Of a stretch of DNA of 20,592 nt, positions 1,185 to 20,551 are shown piece after piece. The DNA is taken from positions 1 through 20,592 of IMG/VR virus record IMGVR_UViG_3300044695_002601. One strand, written 5' to 3'. The stretch comes from a virus. The notes beneath the pieces are model-generated. The model saw only the letters and a program-made list of their open reading frames with translations, was not told the origin of the DNA and searched no databases. Made by a program: the position numbers and the translations under genes. Positions within the stretch are counted from its first letter, which is position 1, and the number at the start of each line of letters is the position of its first letter.

Positions 1185-2051
1185 TTACGCCATCCCGATG
1201 TCAGACAAGGCTCGTGCCACGCCTTCAGAGATGGAGATCTTTGGTTGTGAGTAGGTGTACATCTTGCGTGGATCCCCTACTCGATAGGCCACGCCCTTCG
1301 GCTTTGTCGCATCTGCCATGATCTCAGGTCGATATCCGATCTGATGCGCGATGATCTCGACCAGAGTGCGAAAGGATGTGCCGATGCCTGTGCAAAGATT
1401 CACTGTGTCATTCACGCGATACTTCGCCATGATCAGACTTGCCTGCACGATGTCATCGATGTGGATCCAGTCGCGAGTTGTCCGATCTGATCCCCAGATG
1501 ATGAAGGGATCCTGCCTCTGGATGCCTCTAGTTACGATCGATGGGAACGGATAGTCCAGCGATTGATCACTGCCATATCCTGAGAAAGGTCGCAGTGTGG
1601 TGATCGATGCGCCCTCGCGCCGTAGGTTGTTCATCAGCATCTCACCTGTCAATTTTGCCCAGCCGTACACCATGTCTGGAGTGTCGATCGAATCAAAATC
1701 GATATCTGTCTCGACTAGACGATGCGAGACCAGACCTGACTGGTGCTTGATCGGATACGCAGCACTAGATGAGAAATAGAGGATGTGCTTTGGCTTTGTG
1801 CGCATCGCCCAGGATGCCATCTCTGCATCGATCGATAGATCAACGGCTAGAGATAGTGGTGAGCCCTCGATCATCATCCGACCGCCGACCACTGCTGCGA
1901 GGTGGATCACGAGATCGTACTGAGTCTGGTCTGCGCGAAAAAAGTCACGAGCATCCACGCCCGTCTTGATATCGATGCAGTGGATATCACCAGCGAGCGC
2001 CTGCCTGAAATGTGTGCCAACAAAGCCCTCTGCTCCAGTGATCAGAATCAT
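1185..2051 (-). CDS. NAD-dependent epimerase/dehydratase (extended SDR, nucleotide-sugar type)
   Basis: The 288-residue protein is a complete extended short-chain dehydrogenase/reductase. It has the Rossmann dinucleotide motif GAEGFVG (6-12), HLAA (50-53), the SSS of the active site (94-96), the catalytic pair Tyr129/Lys133 in YGWAK, RPF (154-156), and the RDWIHIDD segment (193-200) typical of sugar-nucleotide epimerases and reductases such as GDP-fucose synthase and UDP-hexose epimerases. Substrate cannot be told from sequence alone. The start overlaps the stop of the upstream glycosyltransferase (ATGA), so the two are very likely made together: this enzyme would shape an activated sugar and the transferase would use it. 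The target could be a virion protein, host surface glycan or DNA; nothing here decides it. All catalytic residues are present, so it looks active. Confidence 0.88.
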   Translation of the reverse strand: MILITGAEGFVGTHFRQALAGDIHCIDIKTGVDARDFFRADQTQYDLVIHLAAVVGGRMMIEGSPLSLAVDLSIDAEMASWAMRTKPKHILYFSSSAAYPIKHQSGLVSHRLVETDIDFDSIDTPDMVYGWAKLTGEMLMNNLRREGASITTLRPFSGYGSDQSLDYPFPSIVTRGIQRQDPFIIWGSDRTTRDWIHIDDIVQASLIMAKYRVNDTVNLCTGIGTSFRTLVEIIAHQIGYRPEIMADATKPKGVAYRVGDPRKMYTYSQPKISISEGVARALSDIGMA

Positions 2052-2743
2052 CGAAGTCCAGCCAAGAGTGTCTGATACTCATTCGATGCCATGTACTCAC
2101 TGAAGCGGATGCGATCAGCATCGTAGATCTCTGGTGCGTTCACTCTGATGTATCCCTCATCCACCTCTGCCTTGCCGATCAGTGGGTGCATGTGCTCAAT
2201 GATGCAGTCAGGTAGATAGAACAGTCGATCTAGATCCTCACCGAGTTGCTTCCAGAAATTGTCTAAATAGAGATGGATCAATCCATCGGGAACCATCCCA
2301 TCGAGCTGCATGGCGATAGTGCCATCCATCCCCACAGCCGTTGGAAGATTCTCGTGCTGAAACAGATCATCGCCATACACGAGCCCACCACGATCTTGCA
2401 GGATGTCGATCCACATCTGATCCCATCGGATCGTGCGTGGTCGGTGATCATCGCCCAGAAAGGCAAAGTGTGTGAATTGTTGCTCGCGCAGTAGTTTCTG
2501 CACTCCTAGATTGAGCGGTCGCGCCATCCCTTTGGACTCTCTAGGAAAAATCATCAGGTTCTCTGCGATCTCCATGTACTGCTCCAGAGTCGGATCATCA
2601 TCATCGCAGACCACCCAGAGAGGTGATGTGGTGAAGGTATCTGAGAGTGATCTCTGCATCTCTGCGATGTTCTCAGGTCTGCCTCTGGATGGAGTCACGA
2701 TCGCCATAGTCGCGAAATCGTCTCGTTGAATATAAGTACTCAT
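2048..2743 (-). CDS. GT-A-like glycosyltransferase
   Basis: A 231-residue soluble protein with the look of a small GT-A glycosyltransferase. It begins with a beta strand and VTPSRGRP (16-23), the usual opening of these enzymes where the nucleotide binds. VVCDDDDP (44-51) and FLGDDHRP (95-102) supply acidic residues of the kind that form the metal-binding DxD; GLVYGDDLFQHENLPT follows (120-135); and HMHP (184-187) could give the C-terminal metal-binding histidine. No membrane segment or signal peptide is seen. Related proteins occur in many actinobacterial and environmental phages, usually without an assigned acceptor. The next gene is an epimerase joined by an ATGA overlap, and a ribbon-helix-helix-like gene ends one base before this start. 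Fold assignment is good; donor and acceptor are unknown. Confidence 0.75.
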   Translation of the reverse strand: MSTYIQRDDFATMAIVTPSRGRPENIAEMQRSLSDTFTTSPLWVVCDDDDPTLEQYMEIAENLMIFPRESKGMARPLNLGVQKLLREQQFTHFAFLGDDHRPRTIRWDQMWIDILQDRGGLVYGDDLFQHENLPTAVGMDGTIAMQLDGMVPDGLIHLYLDNFWKQLGEDLDRLFYLPDCIIEHMHPLIGKAEVDEGYIRVNAPEIYDADRIRFSEYMASNEYQTLLAGLR

Positions 2744-3661: not shown

Positions 3662-3680
3662 CTGGATCCTGCCTTCCGTA

Positions 3681-7070: not shown

Positions 7071-8324
7071 TCAGTAAGCGAGGGAATCCTCATCGAGTCG
7101 GCCATCGACAGAGGAATCCAAGACGAATCCTACCGCGAATGGTTGTGCAGTTGTGAATGTGGTAGTAAATAAATTAGGTGTTATGTCATACGCGACTCCA
7201 GTGATCACTGTGTTGCTCACCGCATTGCCACCGACATATACCTGCGTTACCTGTATCGGATCAAAGACATCAAGCTCTAGAGCAGCAGTCACACGCGCTG
7301 GATCTGATCCATCGAAGGCATCTACCACCATGTTCTGCATTCGTAGATCTGCGCCTACTTCTTTACGCGATGCGATGATCATCTGCGCAGAGTTGAGTGC
7401 ATCTGCATCTGTCTGCGCGATAGATGATCTGATTCTGCTGTGATCGAAATAAGTCAGTTGCGATGGAATATCCTGTGCGCTTTGTGGTGTGCCACCAGTC
7501 CTAGTGACTGTCACGCTGTTCACTACGCCGAAGTCGGACAGATCAAAGGACACACTCTGATAGGCGATCACTCCAGGTGATCCAGAGTCAGAGAAGGCTG
7601 TGGCAGTGCCACCTGACAGGGAAATAATGTCATTTCGGCTCTTGAAGGTCGCGTAGCCATTCTGGTTCATGTAGAAGGCTCCGAGCTCGGTCTGCTCTGC
7701 CGTTTGACATGCGCTCAGTGCGCTGCGACTGCTGCCATCGTCTGCCTGGACAGTGGTGGTCGCAGTTGAGCTGATCGATCGCATACCACCAGGGAAGTCT
7801 GCGGCGTTGAGTACGCTGGAGACTCTCTGCGCTGTAGTCTGGCCAGCAGTGCCACCGGCCACCGATGTGATCGTAGTTAGATTGAGTAGCTGAAAACCAT
7901 CGACACATACAAGATCAACATAGGCTGGATCGAATCCTGTCGGTGACTGATATGCCCATGACTGCACATACATCGAGCCCAGTGCGTATTCCTGATTCAG
8001 AGTATCTTTGCCGATGAAGCGGATCTTGCGCATCGGCAGGATCTTGCCGTATAGCGCTCCGCTTGTATTAGAAGGATTGAATAGCCCTGTGTCATCGATC
8101 AGGCGTACAGTTGCCGATCCTGTTTGGAATGAGTCAGATGTGCGATTGTAAGCTCTGCGAATCGATGCACGCATCACGAACTGTGTGACATCGAGTGTGT
8201 CAGCTACGGCTGTGCCTAGTACAGATGAGTCGAGTGGTGTGCTCGGATCATCGAGCACAAGAGCCGGATCGAAGGTAGCTCCGTTTCCAAAGTCAATGAT
8301 GCACTGAAATGTTGCCCCTGACAT
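7071..8324 (-). CDS. Minor tail protein (tail-tip/hub type), 417 aa
   Basis: This gene follows the tape measure directly (TAATG), the usual place of distal-tail or hub proteins. Its 417 residues are mainly beta strands. Early segments read QFVMRASIRRAYNRTSDSF and GSATVRLIDDTGLFNP; a middle part has TTAQRVSSVLNAADFPGG and GAFYMNQNGYATFKSRN; and the end has FDPIQVTQV and TPNLFTTTFTTAQPF. The order 'insertion of a cohesion-like beta domain, then a domain that reads like the tail-hub fold' is typical of minor tail proteins in actinobacterial siphophages. No peptidase or glycosidase motif was seen. It probably forms part of the tail-tip complex that carries the small fibre proteins encoded next. 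Confidence 0.75.
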   Translation of the reverse strand: MSGATFQCIIDFGNGATFDPALVLDDPSTPLDSSVLGTAVADTLDVTQFVMRASIRRAYNRTSDSFQTGSATVRLIDDTGLFNPSNTSGALYGKILPMRKIRFIGKDTLNQEYALGSMYVQSWAYQSPTGFDPAYVDLVCVDGFQLLNLTTITSVAGGTAGQTTAQRVSSVLNAADFPGGMRSISSTATTTVQADDGSSRSALSACQTAEQTELGAFYMNQNGYATFKSRNDIISLSGGTATAFSDSGSPGVIAYQSVSFDLSDFGVVNSVTVTRTGGTPQSAQDIPSQLTYFDHSRIRSSIAQTDADALNSAQMIIASRKEVGADLRMQNMVVDAFDGSDPARVTAALELDVFDPIQVTQVYVGGNAVSNTVITGVAYDITPNLFTTTFTTAQPFAVGFVLDSSVDGRLDEDSLAY

Positions 8325-10093
8325 TAGCGCCCTAGAAGGTCAAGCGTCACAGGATTGCCCTGTCTGTTTTGATTACCGATCAGGTTTGAAAGATAGAAGC
8401 CTAGATCCTGCTCGGTCAGAACTGATCCAGCTACATTGAGATTGATCGTAGTGCCACCTGATGCGCCAACGCCTAGATAGTCAAATCCACCCATAGATGA
8501 TGGCGCTGCCAATCCGCTAAAACCTGCATCCCCTGGCATGAATGGCTTATCGATCGCCATTTCCCTATCGATCAGATCTTGCACAGAATCACCTATTGGA
8601 GTTCGTGGCTGCATTGATGGTGGCGCTGGCGGCGGCGGTGGTGGTAGCGGCGGTGGTGTGGGTAGTTCTCCCGTTAGACCTTTGAGAACATCTGGTGGAA
8701 TAGGGATGCCCAGACTCTTGTAGTAGAGCTGGATCTCAATAGTCAATTTATTAAGTTGGTTTACATCTGCGGCTACTGCTGCTGCTCTGGCCTTATCTAG
8801 CGCGATCAGTTTGGCAAGCGCCGCCTCATCGTCTTTGTATCCCTCAGACTTTATGGCCTGCAATCCCTCGACCGCAGCTATCTCCTCGCTTGTTCCAGCC
8901 CTGCGCTTAGCGATAGCAAGATTGATGCCCTCAATATCAAACTTATTTGCTAGATCAGACATGATCTTGGCTTGGCGCTCTTCCTCTAATTTCTTTGCGC
9001 GCTCTTTATTTTTCTCCGCGTTGGTTTTCTTTTCTTGTTCTTGAAGTTTCTTTTGCAGTGCTAGTTGCGAGGCAGTAAGTTTGACGATCTTGGTTGTAGT
9101 TTGTGTCTGTGCTGCCCTTGCCTGATCCCGTTTGTTTTCTATATCAAGAGTGCCTTTAAGCGCATCGCGTTCTGCCTTGACCTGAGCTCCGCGTTTTTCA
9201 AAGAGCTTGAGAGCTATACCAACAGCCCCGATGATCCGGCCTAACGGAGTCAGTACCGCGATGACCGCTAATACAGGCTTAATGATCCCCTTTGCATCTT
9301 TGGCGAAGTCTGCAAAACCCATCGCTACATTTCCAAAGCGTGTTCCTATCTTCTCTAGCTCACCGCCCAGATTTTGCATGCCGCCAGGTCTATCTCCGGC
9401 CAGAATCTTCATAGCCTCGACTAAACCGACACCTAGATTCTCCTGTGCCTTTTCTCCTGAGATCCGCAGTTTGTCGAGCTGACCTGCAAAGCCCTCTGCG
9501 GCATTTGCAGCCTGTCCTGAGAACTTCTGTGATAGCTCTAGGATCGCGCCATCCAGATCACCAGATTTAAGGGTGGACTTGTCCAGACCCACATTGAGTT
9601 TGCCCAGCGCCGCTAGGTTTCCTGAGAAGGCTCGTGATAGCGCACTTGAGACTGTAGCTAGATCTTTGCCGGAGCCTTTTGATACATCAAGGGCAATCTT
9701 GAGTAGCTCCTGCGATGAGGCCACATCTTTGGTTACATTTATGAGCTGATTTAGCGATGGCCTAAGCTCATCTTCGGACACACCGAAGGCTCTCTGGAGA
9801 CCATCAACGAAACCATCAACCTCTTTGACCGAGAAGGATGAGCCGATATTCTGAAGTGTCTGATCTAGCTGCCTGAGCGCCCGATCCTCATCCTCTGTTG
9901 CTTTGAGCGCCGCCGCCATCTGCTTGCCAGCAAATGCAACCGCAGCCGTACCTGATAAAAGGAAACCTATCTTTGATGCCTTGCCTGCCTGTAGAGCAGA
10001 CTTTCCCATCTTCTTAAAGCCGCTCTCGGCCTGTTTTAATCCTTTAGCGTTTAACTTTGTAATAAAGGAGACGATGACTGAGCGATTAGCCAT
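8324..10093 (-). CDS. Tape measure protein
   Basis: The 589-residue protein lies after the tail chaperone and before the tail-tip gene. The N-terminal part is helical with Lys/Ala-rich repeats (LNAKGLKQAESGFKKMG), a hydrophobic stretch lies at about 42-62 and another at about 270-298 (IIKPVLAVIAVLTPLG), then a charged coiled coil at about 300-380 (QLALQKKLQEQEKK). A proline-rich tract, PTPPPLPPPPPPAPP (478-492), precedes a C-terminal part ending with TTINLNVAGSVLTEQDLGF, which is common in tape measures. Tape measure length sets tail length; at roughly 0.15 nm per residue this predicts a fairly short tail near 90 nm, which is an inference. It is joined to both neighbours by TAATG. Confidence 0.88.
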   Translation of the reverse strand: MANRSVIVSFITKLNAKGLKQAESGFKKMGKSALQAGKASKIGFLLSGTAAVAFAGKQMAAALKATEDEDRALRQLDQTLQNIGSSFSVKEVDGFVDGLQRAFGVSEDELRPSLNQLINVTKDVASSQELLKIALDVSKGSGKDLATVSSALSRAFSGNLAALGKLNVGLDKSTLKSGDLDGAILELSQKFSGQAANAAEGFAGQLDKLRISGEKAQENLGVGLVEAMKILAGDRPGGMQNLGGELEKIGTRFGNVAMGFADFAKDAKGIIKPVLAVIAVLTPLGRIIGAVGIALKLFEKRGAQVKAERDALKGTLDIENKRDQARAAQTQTTTKIVKLTASQLALQKKLQEQEKKTNAEKNKERAKKLEEERQAKIMSDLANKFDIEGINLAIAKRRAGTSEEIAAVEGLQAIKSEGYKDDEAALAKLIALDKARAAAVAADVNQLNKLTIEIQLYYKSLGIPIPPDVLKGLTGELPTPPPLPPPPPPAPPSMQPRTPIGDSVQDLIDREMAIDKPFMPGDAGFSGLAAPSSMGGFDYLGVGASGGTTINLNVAGSVLTEQDLGFYLSNLIGNQNRQGNPVTLDLLGR

Positions 10094-10716
10094 TATCGTG
10101 ACTTTCCAAATCTAGCGAGTATGGGATCTATGATGCGTTCCATTTGTCCACCTATCTGGATTCCATGCTCTTCTTTGATACGCCAGACCACGCGTTTGCG
10201 ATCGCCATGCTTCCTGTTCATATTCTCTCGCATTCGCACTCCAGCGTTAAGATTGCGAGCCCTGTACCTGCCATCGGATCTGCGCTTGCCCTGACCGATC
10301 AGCTCATACATCTTGCCCGATACACTGTCATTCTTTAATCCGATTACATTGTCAAAAGTTAGGCCTTTAGCCTTAAAGGATCCACGCGTGATGCTGATCC
10401 CACGCTTGGCATCGGCGCTATCCCATACCCATCTGATGGCCGCATCTCTACCATGATGCTTTGTATCATTCTCCCAGGTTGCTGATGTGTATGTTGGCGC
10501 AATCGTTCTCCACTTTGATAGTGGAGACTCGGCAGGGATGAAGCCTCTAGCCATAGTGACATAGGGCAACAGGATGTTGCGCGTGTCTTTGTTAAATGCT
10601 TTACGCGCCTGTGGATCTATGCGTTTGAGATCTTTTAGAGCCTCATCTAGATCCGATACATACAGGATGTGTCCAGCGTTTCGATTAGCCTGATCAACGA
10701 AAAACTCTCTGATCAT
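10093..10716 (-). CDS. HK97 gp10-like tail/neck protein, 207 aa
   Basis: The N-terminal half has LDEALKDLKRIDPQARKAF followed by a helix and a basic, arginine-rich core (GRDAAIRWVWDSADAKRGISI; GKRRSDGRYRARN), and the C-terminus is a long amphipathic helix (QIGGQMERIIDPILARFG). This fits the HK97 gp10-like family of tail-completion or neck proteins, although these usually sit before the tail tube gene. Here the gene is between the chaperone and the tape measure, which is unusual. Its start overlaps the stop of the frameshifted chaperone (ATGA), and it meets the tape measure in TAATG. Family call is moderate. Confidence 0.55.
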   Translation of the reverse strand: MIREFFVDQANRNAGHILYVSDLDEALKDLKRIDPQARKAFNKDTRNILLPYVTMARGFIPAESPLSKWRTIAPTYTSATWENDTKHHGRDAAIRWVWDSADAKRGISITRGSFKAKGLTFDNVIGLKNDSVSGKMYELIGQGKRRSDGRYRARNLNAGVRMRENMNRKHGDRKRVVWRIKEEHGIQIGGQMERIIDPILARFGKSR

Positions 10717-11128
10717 CGTCTGCCTCTCCTCACCTGTTGCCTTCCTGCCTGATTGCGTTCAGTCAGGATTGTTTTGATCGCTACTAGGAAGGCCGGATCA
10801 CAGTCGAGAAGATCATTCGGCGCTATACCAGTGAGCACCGACAAGGATGCGATCTCAAAGATGCGCCCTTGTCGGCTTATCCATTTGGGGAGTCAGTCAC
10901 GATGTCCACTTCAACAAGTGAGTCGATGAAGGCATCGAGGGCTAACTGCGTGAGTCCTTTGCGCTTCATCGCGTGATGTGCGATCCAGTAGAGATCTGAC
11001 TGGCGCTCATTGTCGCGAAGCAGCTTATAGAAGCCACCCTTGAACTCGATCTCGAAGGCACACTCCGTTGCTGGAGTGACATCTACGACCTCGCTCTTTC
11101 CCTCTTTGGTTGTGATCTTTAGCCTCAT
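10713..11128 (-). CDS. Tail assembly chaperone, -1 frameshift fusion (G-T type), about 138 aa
   Basis: Reading from 11128, a -1 shift at CCCAAAT (10889-10883) avoids the TAA at 10879 and continues through a second open segment to the TGA at 10715-10713. The added residues read WISRQGRIFEIASLSVLTGI and onward to a basic end (QAGRQQVRRGRR), the usual make-up of the T part of lambda-like G-T chaperones. The new stop overlaps the next start as ATGA, just like other junctions here, which strongly supports that the shifted frame is truly translated. The fusion would be about 138 residues (80 upstream, two at the slip, 56 after). In lambda the ratio of G to G-T is needed for correct tail assembly around the tape measure. 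Confidence 0.85.
10838..10889 (-). promoter_or_regulatory. Programmed -1 ribosomal frameshift signal
   Basis: Three parts are visible on the minus strand: the slippery heptamer C CCA AAT (10889-10883), which fits X XXY YYZ in the zero frame; a 7-base spacer GGATAAG (10882-10876) that includes the zero-frame stop; and a perfect 9-bp stem CCGACAAGG / CCTTGTCGG (10875-10867 with 10846-10838). The 20-base loop can add an inner stem (GCG, bulged C, ATC with GATCGC; five-base loop). Spacer length and stem strength are those expected for a stimulator of -1 slippage. Confidence 0.88.
10877..11128 (-). CDS. Tail assembly chaperone, unshifted product (G type), 83 aa
   Basis: The zero-frame product is 83 residues. 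It starts after GGAACCGGAAGG and contains a beta-rich first half (MRLKITTKEGKSEVVDV, ATECAFEIEFKGGFYKLL) and a helical second half with DLYWIAHHAMKRKG and ALDAFIDSLVEVDIV. The 'W.AhhA..R' and 'F...L..V.' pattern is typical of the tail-assembly chaperones that coat tape measure proteins in the cell. It is followed by the frameshift element, so it is expected to be the more abundant of two products. It is encoded right after the tail tube gene, 18 bases downstream. Confidence 0.78.
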   Translation of the reverse strand: MRLKITTKEGKSEVVDVTPATECAFEIEFKGGFYKLLRDNERQSDLYWIAHHAMKRKGLTQLALDAFIDSLVEVDIVTDSPNG

Positions 11129-11146: not shown

Positions 11147-11554
11147 TTAGGCTGATGTTGATTTGGTTAGTGCTTTAACCGGCCATGTGACGCTTGCTGT
11201 GGCCACTGTTTCTGGACTGGTATTGATTGGCTGCCACTGACCCACGAAACAGCTCATGGTGTAGCTAGGGTTGGTCGCTGTGACTGTGCCGCTAACTGGA
11301 ACCAGCTTCAGATTCAAGTATGAACCAAGTGCGGCCTCTACTAGATCATTCACTGAGCTCGATGCAAAGTCGTTAAAGAACTCAATGGTTACTGAGTCGT
11401 TATTTAGACCACCGAGGAACACATGATCGGCATTTGACATCGTTGTGATTTCAACGGCATCGACCTCACGATTCAGTGTGACCTGACTGACGAATGCTGA
11501 GACAGTGGTTGTTCCGAGAATCACCACTGTGTTCTTGCCTGAAAATATTGCCAT
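11147..11554 (-). CDS. Major tail (tube) protein, 135 aa
   Basis: A 135-residue beta-rich protein just upstream of the chaperone, the standard place for the tail tube subunit. It starts MAIFSGKNTVVILG after GGAGAAGAG, contains DAVEITTMSNADHVFLGG, NDSVTIEFFNDF, and ends with TASVTWPVKALTKSTSA. The arrangement 'strand, DxVExTTxSDxxxxxLxG' and a final 'W.V.A' strand resembles the small tube proteins of actinobacterial siphophages. It would polymerise as hexamer rings around the tape measure. The strong ribosome site fits high expression. Confidence 0.82.
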   Translation of the reverse strand: MAIFSGKNTVVILGTTTVSAFVSQVTLNREVDAVEITTMSNADHVFLGGLNNDSVTIEFFNDFASSSVNDLVEAALGSYLNLKLVPVSGTVTATNPSYTMSCFVGQWQPINTSPETVATASVTWPVKALTKSTSA

Positions 11555-18540: not shown

Positions 18541-18917
18541 TTAGATATCTCGGCTGCGAGCTGATCCCAGATGTCAGGTGTCTCCACAACCTTCGTTTCT
18601 CCGGTAATGCCTAGCAGTTTGACACGCTGTTCGATGATTTTCAGGATCATGCTCATAGAGGCAGCATCTCCAGTCATCGCCTTCGGCCATGCTGCTACCT
18701 GCAGACGATCGAGACGATCTAGTTCTTGGCGCAGTAGTTCATCGGTACTCTGCTCTGAGTCGTTGCGGATAGCTCGCTGATATGCTCGATGAGCACCACT
18801 GTGATCGGCATATCCGACCTCTTCTGCAATTCTTTGCCAGGTCAGCCCTGCTCTTCTGAGCTCTAGTACCCTGGCATCTTTGTCAGCCGCCGGACTCGGA
18901 TCTGTTTTCTTGGTCAT
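18537..18917 (-). CDS. terS: Terminase small subunit
   Basis: The 126-residue protein carries an N-terminal helix-turn-helix (ARVLELRRAGLTWQRIAEEVG, about 15-35, then SGAHRAYQRAI) that would bind the packaging site, followed by an oligomerisation helix (ELLRQELDRLDRLQVAAWPKA) and a second helical part (SMILKIIEQRVKLLG). It ends with DIWDQLAAEISK. This order is usual for small terminases of siphophages, and the gene immediately before terL confirms it. Confidence 0.85.
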   Translation of the reverse strand: MTKKTDPSPAADKDARVLELRRAGLTWQRIAEEVGYADHSGAHRAYQRAIRNDSEQSTDELLRQELDRLDRLQVAAWPKAMTGDAASMSMILKIIEQRVKLLGITGETKVVETPDIWDQLAAEISK

Positions 18918-19705
18918 TGCAACGCCTTTTTGTGGAGCCCTGAGATTGGACTTGCACCATCTTCTATACGCTGGAAGCGCATCACATCAGTGTCAATGCT
19001 TTCAGGGCGCTGCCCACGATACATGCGCGCGCCCACAAGGTCAATCGTTGAGTACGGCAAGACTGGCACTGTCAGGCGATCCTGCACTGTGCTGTTGAGC
19101 GGATACAGATATCTGAGCTGAAATCCTGGCAGGCAAACCGCCCCTACTTTTTTAAGGAAGGCTGTGGATGTCTCTGTTCCTGTTTTGCCGTATCGCGCTT
19201 TGACTCCGTTGCCTTTCGCATTTGGACTAAATCCTGGCTCCAGCACTATCTTCGCTAAGACTTCTCCATCTGGCATCCTCCACATCGATGTGTTCTTTTT
19301 GATGCCTATCAGCAGAAATCCTGCTGCTCGATAGATCGTGCCATCTCCACTCTGCGTTCCATCTGCATACGAGAGTATCCACTCCACATGTGGAGCATGC
19401 TGCTTCATAATTTTCATGGCTATAGATAGGGCTCGACTCTCGCTGTTGCGAGGCAACACTGGAGTGAAGGCCATGCGATTGAGCTCCATGAAATTGTTCC
19501 ATCCAGTATCTTTGACCAGTCCTATCGCCTTGCTTTTGTCGATAGAGATGCCAAACTGGAGACATCCTTCGAGACTGCCTCGATAGAAAACACCGAGATG
19601 GATCTGTGATCGTGGATCGACCTTGCCAGAGTAGTGATTGGCTCGCACAAACTTCATCGCCTCTCTCGCCCCTATCGGCTCGATGCGTAACTCTTTAGCG
19701 CTCAT
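18914..19705 (-). CDS. Mom-like GNAT-fold protein, candidate DNA-adenine modification enzyme
   Basis: From the ATG at 19705 the protein has 263 residues; a longer frame exists but would overlap the ParB-like gene further. Residues 1-160 resemble Mom-family proteins: ANHYSGKVDP (His24), a beta hairpin with LGVFYRGSLEGCLQFG, MELNRMAF (73-80), RALSIAMKIMKQHAP, WILSYADGTQSGDG (109-122) and TIYRAAGFLLIG. In phage Mu, Mom adds a carbamoylmethyl-type group to adenine and protects DNA against host restriction. Residues 160-263 are a poorly conserved extension with two stretches like GNGVKARYGKTG. Mu mom needs a zinc-finger translation factor (Com) and Dam control; neither is seen here. Placed between the ParB-like gene and the terminase genes. 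Function is family inference. Confidence 0.7.
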   Translation of the reverse strand: MSAKELRIEPIGAREAMKFVRANHYSGKVDPRSQIHLGVFYRGSLEGCLQFGISIDKSKAIGLVKDTGWNNFMELNRMAFTPVLPRNSESRALSIAMKIMKQHAPHVEWILSYADGTQSGDGTIYRAAGFLLIGIKKNTSMWRMPDGEVLAKIVLEPGFSPNAKGNGVKARYGKTGTETSTAFLKKVGAVCLPGFQLRYLYPLNSTVQDRLTVPVLPYSTIDLVGARMYRGQRPESIDTDVMRFQRIEDGASPISGLHKKALQ

Positions 19706-20291
19706 CCCAGTCCTTACATATCGCCCACAGTGCGTTGCCGTTGCTGTTGCTGTTATCTGTCTCATCAAAGTTGTGCATGGTCTTGCATCGCCTGATCGCT
19801 GCCTTGATCTGCTCTGCCTGATCTAGTGTCATGGTGAAGGTCATCTGAGTAGCGTTATCTCTCTCACCTGTTGGCAGGTTTTCGAAGGCCTGATCCATAG
19901 GGATCTGAGTAGCCTCGTTCACTGCGAATCCAAGCGAGACAAGTGACATGCCCTCTGCCTCTAACATCTCTAACTGTGCTGCCAGCTCTAACTCATCCCA
20001 CTCAGCTAGTGTGGCCGTTTGATTATCTGCGATCGCATAAGCCTGAGCCATGCTCGCATCCCAGTCATCTGGTATATCGGTGACTGATATCTCTGTCCAT
20101 CCAAGAGCCTGCGCAGCCTGATATGTGCCATTCCCTGCAATGATCCTGCTGCCCTGTACTACCAGAGGCTTACGCTGTCCGAACTGTTTGAGACTTTCGC
20201 TGATCGCGTTGATATTCGCTACCGAGTGCTTCCGCACATTTGATGGATCTTGATGCAAATCTGCTATAGGGATCATCCGAGTGTTTACCAT
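19695..20291 (-). CDS. ParB-like nuclease-domain protein, 198 aa
   Basis: The start at ATG 20291 lies just before the stop of the HNH gene (ATGGTAA); AAAGGAAG is about 11 bases upstream, somewhat far. Residues 5-110 are a ParB/sulfiredoxin-like N-domain: IPIADLHQDPSNVRKHS, ISESLKQFGQRKPLVVQ, IIAGNGTYQAAQALG (GNGT in place of the GxRR box, residues 53-60), and IADNQTATLAEWD. The last 70 residues hold MTFTMTLDQAEQIKAAIRR and a Asn/Ser-rich end (ETDNSNSNGNAL), a combination I know from phage ParB-like proteins encoded near terminases. It may bind or nick DNA or act as a CTP/ATP switch; no plasmid-type ParA is present. It shares 11 bases with the next gene. Confidence 0.8.
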   Translation of the reverse strand: MVNTRMIPIADLHQDPSNVRKHSVANINAISESLKQFGQRKPLVVQGSRIIAGNGTYQAAQALGWTEISVTDIPDDWDASMAQAYAIADNQTATLAEWDELELAAQLEMLEAEGMSLVSLGFAVNEATQIPMDQAFENLPTGERDNATQMTFTMTLDQAEQIKAAIRRCKTMHNFDETDNSNSNGNALWAICKDWDER

Positions 20292-20551
20292 GTCCGAGTC
20301 CACTTCCTTTGGTTCCTGCGAGCGTTTGTAATCTTCGCCCCGCGTGAATAGTTGCATTTGGCACAAGCTGGTCTGAGTACTCCTCGCCATAGTTCAGGCG
20401 CAGGGAAAGATGACAGTGGTGGATCGTGGTCTGCTGTCGTTGCTGGAGCTAGTCTGCACCAGTAACAAATCGGATCAGATTCCAGTAATTTCTGACGCAT
20501 CTTTCTATATATGCTCGAATATTTTCTATTTCCCCAAGTTTTTATTTCCAC
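20285..20551 (-). CDS. HNH endonuclease, 88 aa
   Basis: The frame starts at GTG 20551 because a stop lies just upstream; the next ATG (20500) would also keep the nuclease core. The protein has CYWC (29-32), the HNH core ADHDPPLS (40-47) and CAKCN (63-67), then a basic tail (RGAKITNARRNQRKW). The four cysteines form a zinc knuckle around the beta-beta-alpha-metal fold. Free-standing HNH proteins next to terminase genes are needed for cos cutting in several siphophages, so a packaging role is plausible; a homing nuclease is the alternative. No clear ribosome site was seen before the GTG. Confidence 0.8.
   Translation of the reverse strand: MEIKTWGNRKYSSIYRKMRQKLLESDPICYWCRLAPATTADHDPPLSSFPAPELWRGVLRPACAKCNYSRGAKITNARRNQRKWTRTW

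Follow-up and report, generated by a model that had tools for sequence, protein, structure and literature searches.

Two-product tail chaperone genes and the locus compared

In phage lambda, a short gene located after the major tail protein gene undergoes a −1 slip near its 3′ end, which gives access to T in the −1 frame and leads to two products, gpG and gpGT (PMC5009743). This two-product G/GT design is widely conserved in long-tailed phages although the sequence similarity is low (PMC5009743). The same device is found in the actinobacteriophages of the SEA-PHAGES collection, whose tail assembly chaperone frameshifts were catalogued by PRFect: a joined frameshift gene is annotated in 2476 of 3679 genomes, and 2397 of these are tail assembly chaperones (PMC10885494).

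The present analysis concerns a window of 20,592 nucleotides, i.e., the whole stretch analyzed (positions 1 to 20,592 of the IMG/VR record IMGVR_UViG_3300044695_002601), in which all the features discussed lie on the minus strand. It indicates, with a probability that we estimate at about 95%, that one gene gives rise to two tail assembly chaperones through a −1 programmed ribosomal frameshift. The mechanism is a textbook one of a known kind (the lambda-type G/GT −1 frameshift); what is new is this unannotated gene. As in lambda, a short gene sits immediately downstream of that of the major tail protein, a −1 slip would take place near its 3′ end and T lies in the −1 frame. The window differs from lambda by: (i) the lack of any detected resemblance to known chaperones, whether in sequence or in the fold modelled for G, (ii) a CCCAAAT heptamer accompanied by a strong hairpin, and (iii) one gene that stands between GT and the gene of the probable tape measure protein.

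Two described phages carry closer counterparts. The first one, Pontimonas phage phiPsal1 (MG835450), was found via its major tail protein. Its gene 016 is homologous to G (25% identity over the aligned part) and has an in-register heptamer and the same neighbours as in the window; however, the heptamer is AAAAAAA and the gene is annotated merely as a hypothetical protein. A_AAA_AAA (3667-3673 of locus L050) opens onto an unannotated 55-codon −1 frame after gene 016, which would run into gene 017 past its annotated start. Frameshifting is not mentioned in the phiPsal1 paper. The second one is EBPR siphovirus 6 (JF412301), in which the T domain of gp13, RIASLAVDTGIAPSLLM, resembles RIFEIASLSVLTGIAPNDLL of the window and CCCTTTG is in register, whereas its G is more divergent and its heptamer lies about 11 codons ahead of the 0-frame stop. 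The next phages by major tail protein, Rhodococcus phages Shagrat and REQ1, were also considered and set aside: they carry a different annotated chaperone gene without in-register XXXYYYZ. Our search of the literature on this heptamer or this lineage in phage tails returned nothing specific. This gene, which now receives a two-product annotation, is missed in the phage studied here as well as in phiPsal1, EBPR siphovirus 6 and several hundred environmental contigs (at least 593 matches).

The heptamer, the −1 frame and the stem in the window and its close relatives

G, the putative 0-frame chaperone (83 amino acids), occupies 10877..11128, including its TAA stop codon (10879-10877), and has homologues in 11 close IMG/VR contigs and in distant ones. 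Its 3′ end reads ..GAC TCC CCA AAT GGA TAA, which places the heptamer C_CCA_AAT (10883..10889) in register for tandem −1 slippage. The spacer GGATAAG (7 nt, 10876..10882) holds the 0-frame stop and is followed by an exact 9-bp stem with its 5′ arm CCGACAAGG at 10867..10875 and its 3′ arm CCTTGTCGG at 10838..10846. In the −1 frame, T (WISRQGRIFEIASLSVLTGIAPNDLLDCDPAFLVAIKTILTERNQAGRQQVRRGRR, 10713..10883) continues from the heptamer as WISRQGR...RRGRR over 56 codons until a TGA (10715-10713), which is included in an ATGA overlap (10713..10716) with the next gene, whose ATG begins at 10716. The fused G-T product would be 138 amino acids long, with the junction peptide ..DIVTDSPNWISR, and gene callers miss it, leaving a gap of 160 bases (10717-10876). 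The sequence-only reading had proposed this whole arrangement (in-frame heptamer, 7-base spacer, perfect stem with a loop able to fold further, 56-codon frame ending in ATGA, missed 138-residue product and 160-base gap), and this observation was confirmed.

Under this reading, most ribosomes would stop at the TAA and release G, whereas a fraction of them would be stalled by the hairpin while tRNA-Pro and tRNA-Asn occupy CCA AAT, then move one base back onto CCC AAA and produce G-T. By analogy with lambda, G would coat the tape measure protein, the T domain of the minority G-T would recruit the major tail protein, and neither G nor G-T would be present in the virion. Frameshifting at the heptamer, its rate and the chaperone role are all inferences.

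An open −1 frame was found in 7% of shuffles; it is therefore weak evidence for frameshifting on its own, and we did not accept it as proof. The genes of the window contain roughly one in-register XXXYYYZ heptamer per 390 codons. Such a heptamer falls among the last 7 codons of only two of these genes, the one other than G leading to a 13-codon extension. A second in-register heptamer of G, GGGAAAG at codon 8, was rejected as a candidate: it is absent from the more distant of the close relatives and its −1 frame closes 23 codons further on.

Only 0.06% of shuffles gave a perfect 9-bp stem with the same spacing. In the predicted RNA fold, closing G-U pairs lengthen the stem to 11 pairs, the spacer shrinking to 6 nt when the closing G-U pair is assigned to the stem. 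A bulged 6-bp apical stem also forms, in agreement with the loop folding suggested earlier. The predicted energy is −39.9 kcal/mol over 103 nt (z = −2.96), a stability reached by one of 200 shuffles.

The close relatives are 11 IMG/VR contigs whose G shows 75-100% identity with that of the window. All of them (11/11) keep CCCAAAT, a 0-frame stop shortly after it and the stem, and in each the T frame spans 55-56 codons; the identical heptamer is also present in the MAG contig L139. The ATGA overlap was found in 10 of the 10 sequences checked (the window and nine close relatives). In these contigs, 95.9% of the cells of the stem alignment are paired, compared to 35-51% for slid controls, and three pairs changed on both sides, L012 showing both AU to GC and GC to AU replacements. 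None of 500 shuffles reached the covariation score of this stem. Differences between the T frames of the window and of L008 number 10, 2 and 24 at the first, second and third positions of −1 codons, respectively. Since they are mostly located in the third position, T appears to be read as a protein, and the −1 frame bears the mark of selection at the protein level; its conserved residues are W1, R4, Q5 and R7-A12.

Distant relatives and exchange of the heptamer

The same design persists, with other X_XXY_YYZ heptamers also in the 0-frame register, in independent lineages of more distant relatives, in which G has 25-45% identity. With a profile search, we found contigs at 36% identity whose G has C_CCT_TTA at its end, followed by a long stem and by a T frame 57 codons in length. 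This CCCTTT clade (L024-type loci, L054-L133) is very abundant in IMG/VR: a search with the G of these contigs gave at least 600 stretches, including at least 593 confirmed relatives, mostly on short contigs. Among the best 80 of these at least 593 relatives, 79 carry CCCTTTA or CCCTTTG in register. The open frame and the heptamer are kept in 86 of the 87 loci retrieved by three further scans, the lone exception being L126, which has a broken heptamer (CCCTCTG, near 585-600) and a T frame that is still open. The comparison of related contigs for heptamer, spacer and stem, which the sequence-only reading had put forward as a check, thus revealed no relative devoid of both the heptamer and the open −1 frame. 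Besides, A_AAA_AAA is found in five of five loci from the phiPsal1 clade, and two MAG contigs carry CCCAAAT (L139, contig labelled uncultured actinobacterium) and CCCTTTA (contig labelled Thermoleophilia). In one locus, L085, the last third of the T frame is unrelated to the family.

The codons used at the site of the CCCTTT clade differ from those used in the rest of G. Proline is encoded by CCT at the site in 73 of 73 distinct genes, compared to 59 of 148 elsewhere in G, and leucine by TTA or TTG in 72 of 73 distinct genes, compared to 134 of 510 elsewhere. The 0-frame codons of the heptamer are therefore under synonymous constraint in this clade. The same test is uninformative in the clade of the window, whose other Asn codons are likewise all AAT. 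The stem also covaries across lineages: among 13 representatives of lineages other than the clade of the window, the score was 0.300, compared to 0.176 for shuffled alignments (none of 500 reaching it) and at most 0.149 for slid versions. A conserved and probably stimulatory structure is thus found downstream of the heptamer, at a distance within the 5-9 nt expected of −1 frameshift sites. Since it is conserved in many environmental phages, the frameshift signal is real.

The heptamer of the window had been described as a less usual choice than GGGAAAN-type sites. This holds for its final T but not for its CCCAAA core. According to a study in Escherichia coli (PMC4066793), C_CC.A_AA.G gave the highest value measured, with the IS3 pseudoknot, whereas the C-ending heptamers A_AA.A_AA.C and G_GG.A_AA.C are weak, although insertion sequences probably make use of them, and AAT in the A site falls outside the motifs most efficient in this species. 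Only the last base, which places an Asn codon in the A site, is therefore odd, and modestly so: given the slippery CCCAAA core with a final G and the weak yet probably used C-ending heptamers, a final T is unusual but not unprecedented in kind. It may suit low-level frameshifting or the tRNAs of the host.

Taken together, these data could correspond to a large unnamed family of tail chaperones from phages of (probably) aquatic actinobacteria, in which the −1 frameshift and the stem were kept while the heptamer was switched between CCCAAAT, CCCTTTA/G and AAAAAAA. The CCCAAAT form would rely on a slip of tRNA-Asn outside the efficient E. coli set, hinting at host-specific decoding. We propose this broader view tentatively, with slightly less than even odds. 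Such heptamer swaps at one conserved site provide a natural series for testing the evolution of slippery sites.

Alternative readings and identity of the gene

The existence of two overlapping frames could have other causes than ribosomal frameshifting. A single-base indel would be enough to unite G and T, as expected if a sequencing error or a pseudogene had broken one 138-codon gene. This explanation is already refuted by conservation: the frames part at an identical position across 11 contigs of a single clade as well as numerous distant contigs, and an X_XXY_YYZ heptamer and a stem almost always accompany the split. It is also very improbable that T is a separate small gene, expressed unfused to G by re-initiation or internal initiation. 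The −1 frame does contain a TTG at T codon 14 and a GTG at codon 16, but neither has an evident Shine-Dalgarno motif, both are located in or at the 3′ arm of the stem, and the conserved residues W1, R4, Q5 and R7-A12 encoded upstream of them would go untranslated. Furthermore, separate expression explains neither the conserved in-register heptamer nor the synonymous constraint on its 0-frame codons. Transcriptional slippage could also unite the frames, and a slippage of the polymerase is conceivable on the A7 of the phiPsal1 clade. However, homopolymers in CCCAAAT, CCCTTTA and their immediate context do not exceed 4 bases, and the conservation of a stem downstream suits a ribosomal mechanism, which leaves this possibility with a very small probability as well.

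A genuine −1 frameshift could serve a tail function other than that of a G/GT-type chaperone. This would fit the additional gene that precedes the tape measure gene and the results of similarity searches. G, T and G-T had no match in Pfam or NCBIfam and no named chaperone family was found for them in Pfam, NCBIfam or PHROGs, G matching only PHROG 6889 (function unknown, E 1.8e-4). A tblastn search of INPHARED with the G-T of the window (E 0.01) gave no match. Fold searches with a modest model of G alone (pLDDT 77) yielded nothing informative, with a best E of 0.48 in Foldseek and a best Z of 4.0, to an unrelated chain, in VIA. Since these searches returned no chaperone, we infer the chaperone role from the position of the gene and its two-product design, together with the conservation of the T domain. 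Position after the major tail protein gene, sizes, two-product design and basic T tail all fit G/GT, and another tail role is therefore improbable. Other frameshifted genes are not known to be common at this position. The tail chaperone frameshift proposed by the sequence-only reading thus gains support from conservation.

The upstream neighbour (11147..11554) encodes the major tail protein (PHROG 4574, E 3.2e-17). Downstream, a gene of 207 codons (10093..10716) without family match separates GT from the gene of the probable tape measure protein (589 amino acids, 8324..10093), which has no family match either and is recognized by position and composition only. GT is thus located between the major tail protein gene and a tape measure gene that is assigned, in the window, by position. 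The order major tail protein, G/GT, one gene and probable tape measure is shared by L024 and phiPsal1, both of which have a gene of similar size to the 207-amino-acid neighbour at the same place; the annotation of phiPsal1 reads tail tube, hypothetical 016, hypothetical 017 and tape measure. A gene of similar size is found at the same place in EBPR siphovirus 6 too. The 207-codon gene could encode a neck or tail-completion protein that has been relocated. Elsewhere in the window, a gene for a Mom-family DNA-modification protein (PF25680, E 1.7e-50) adjoins a ParB-N-like gene (18914-19768 and 19695-20390, both on the minus strand), and a sugar epimerase (PF01370) lies beside a weak match, below the cut-off, to a TET-associated glycosyltransferase (PF20691) in the region 1185-2743 (minus strand).
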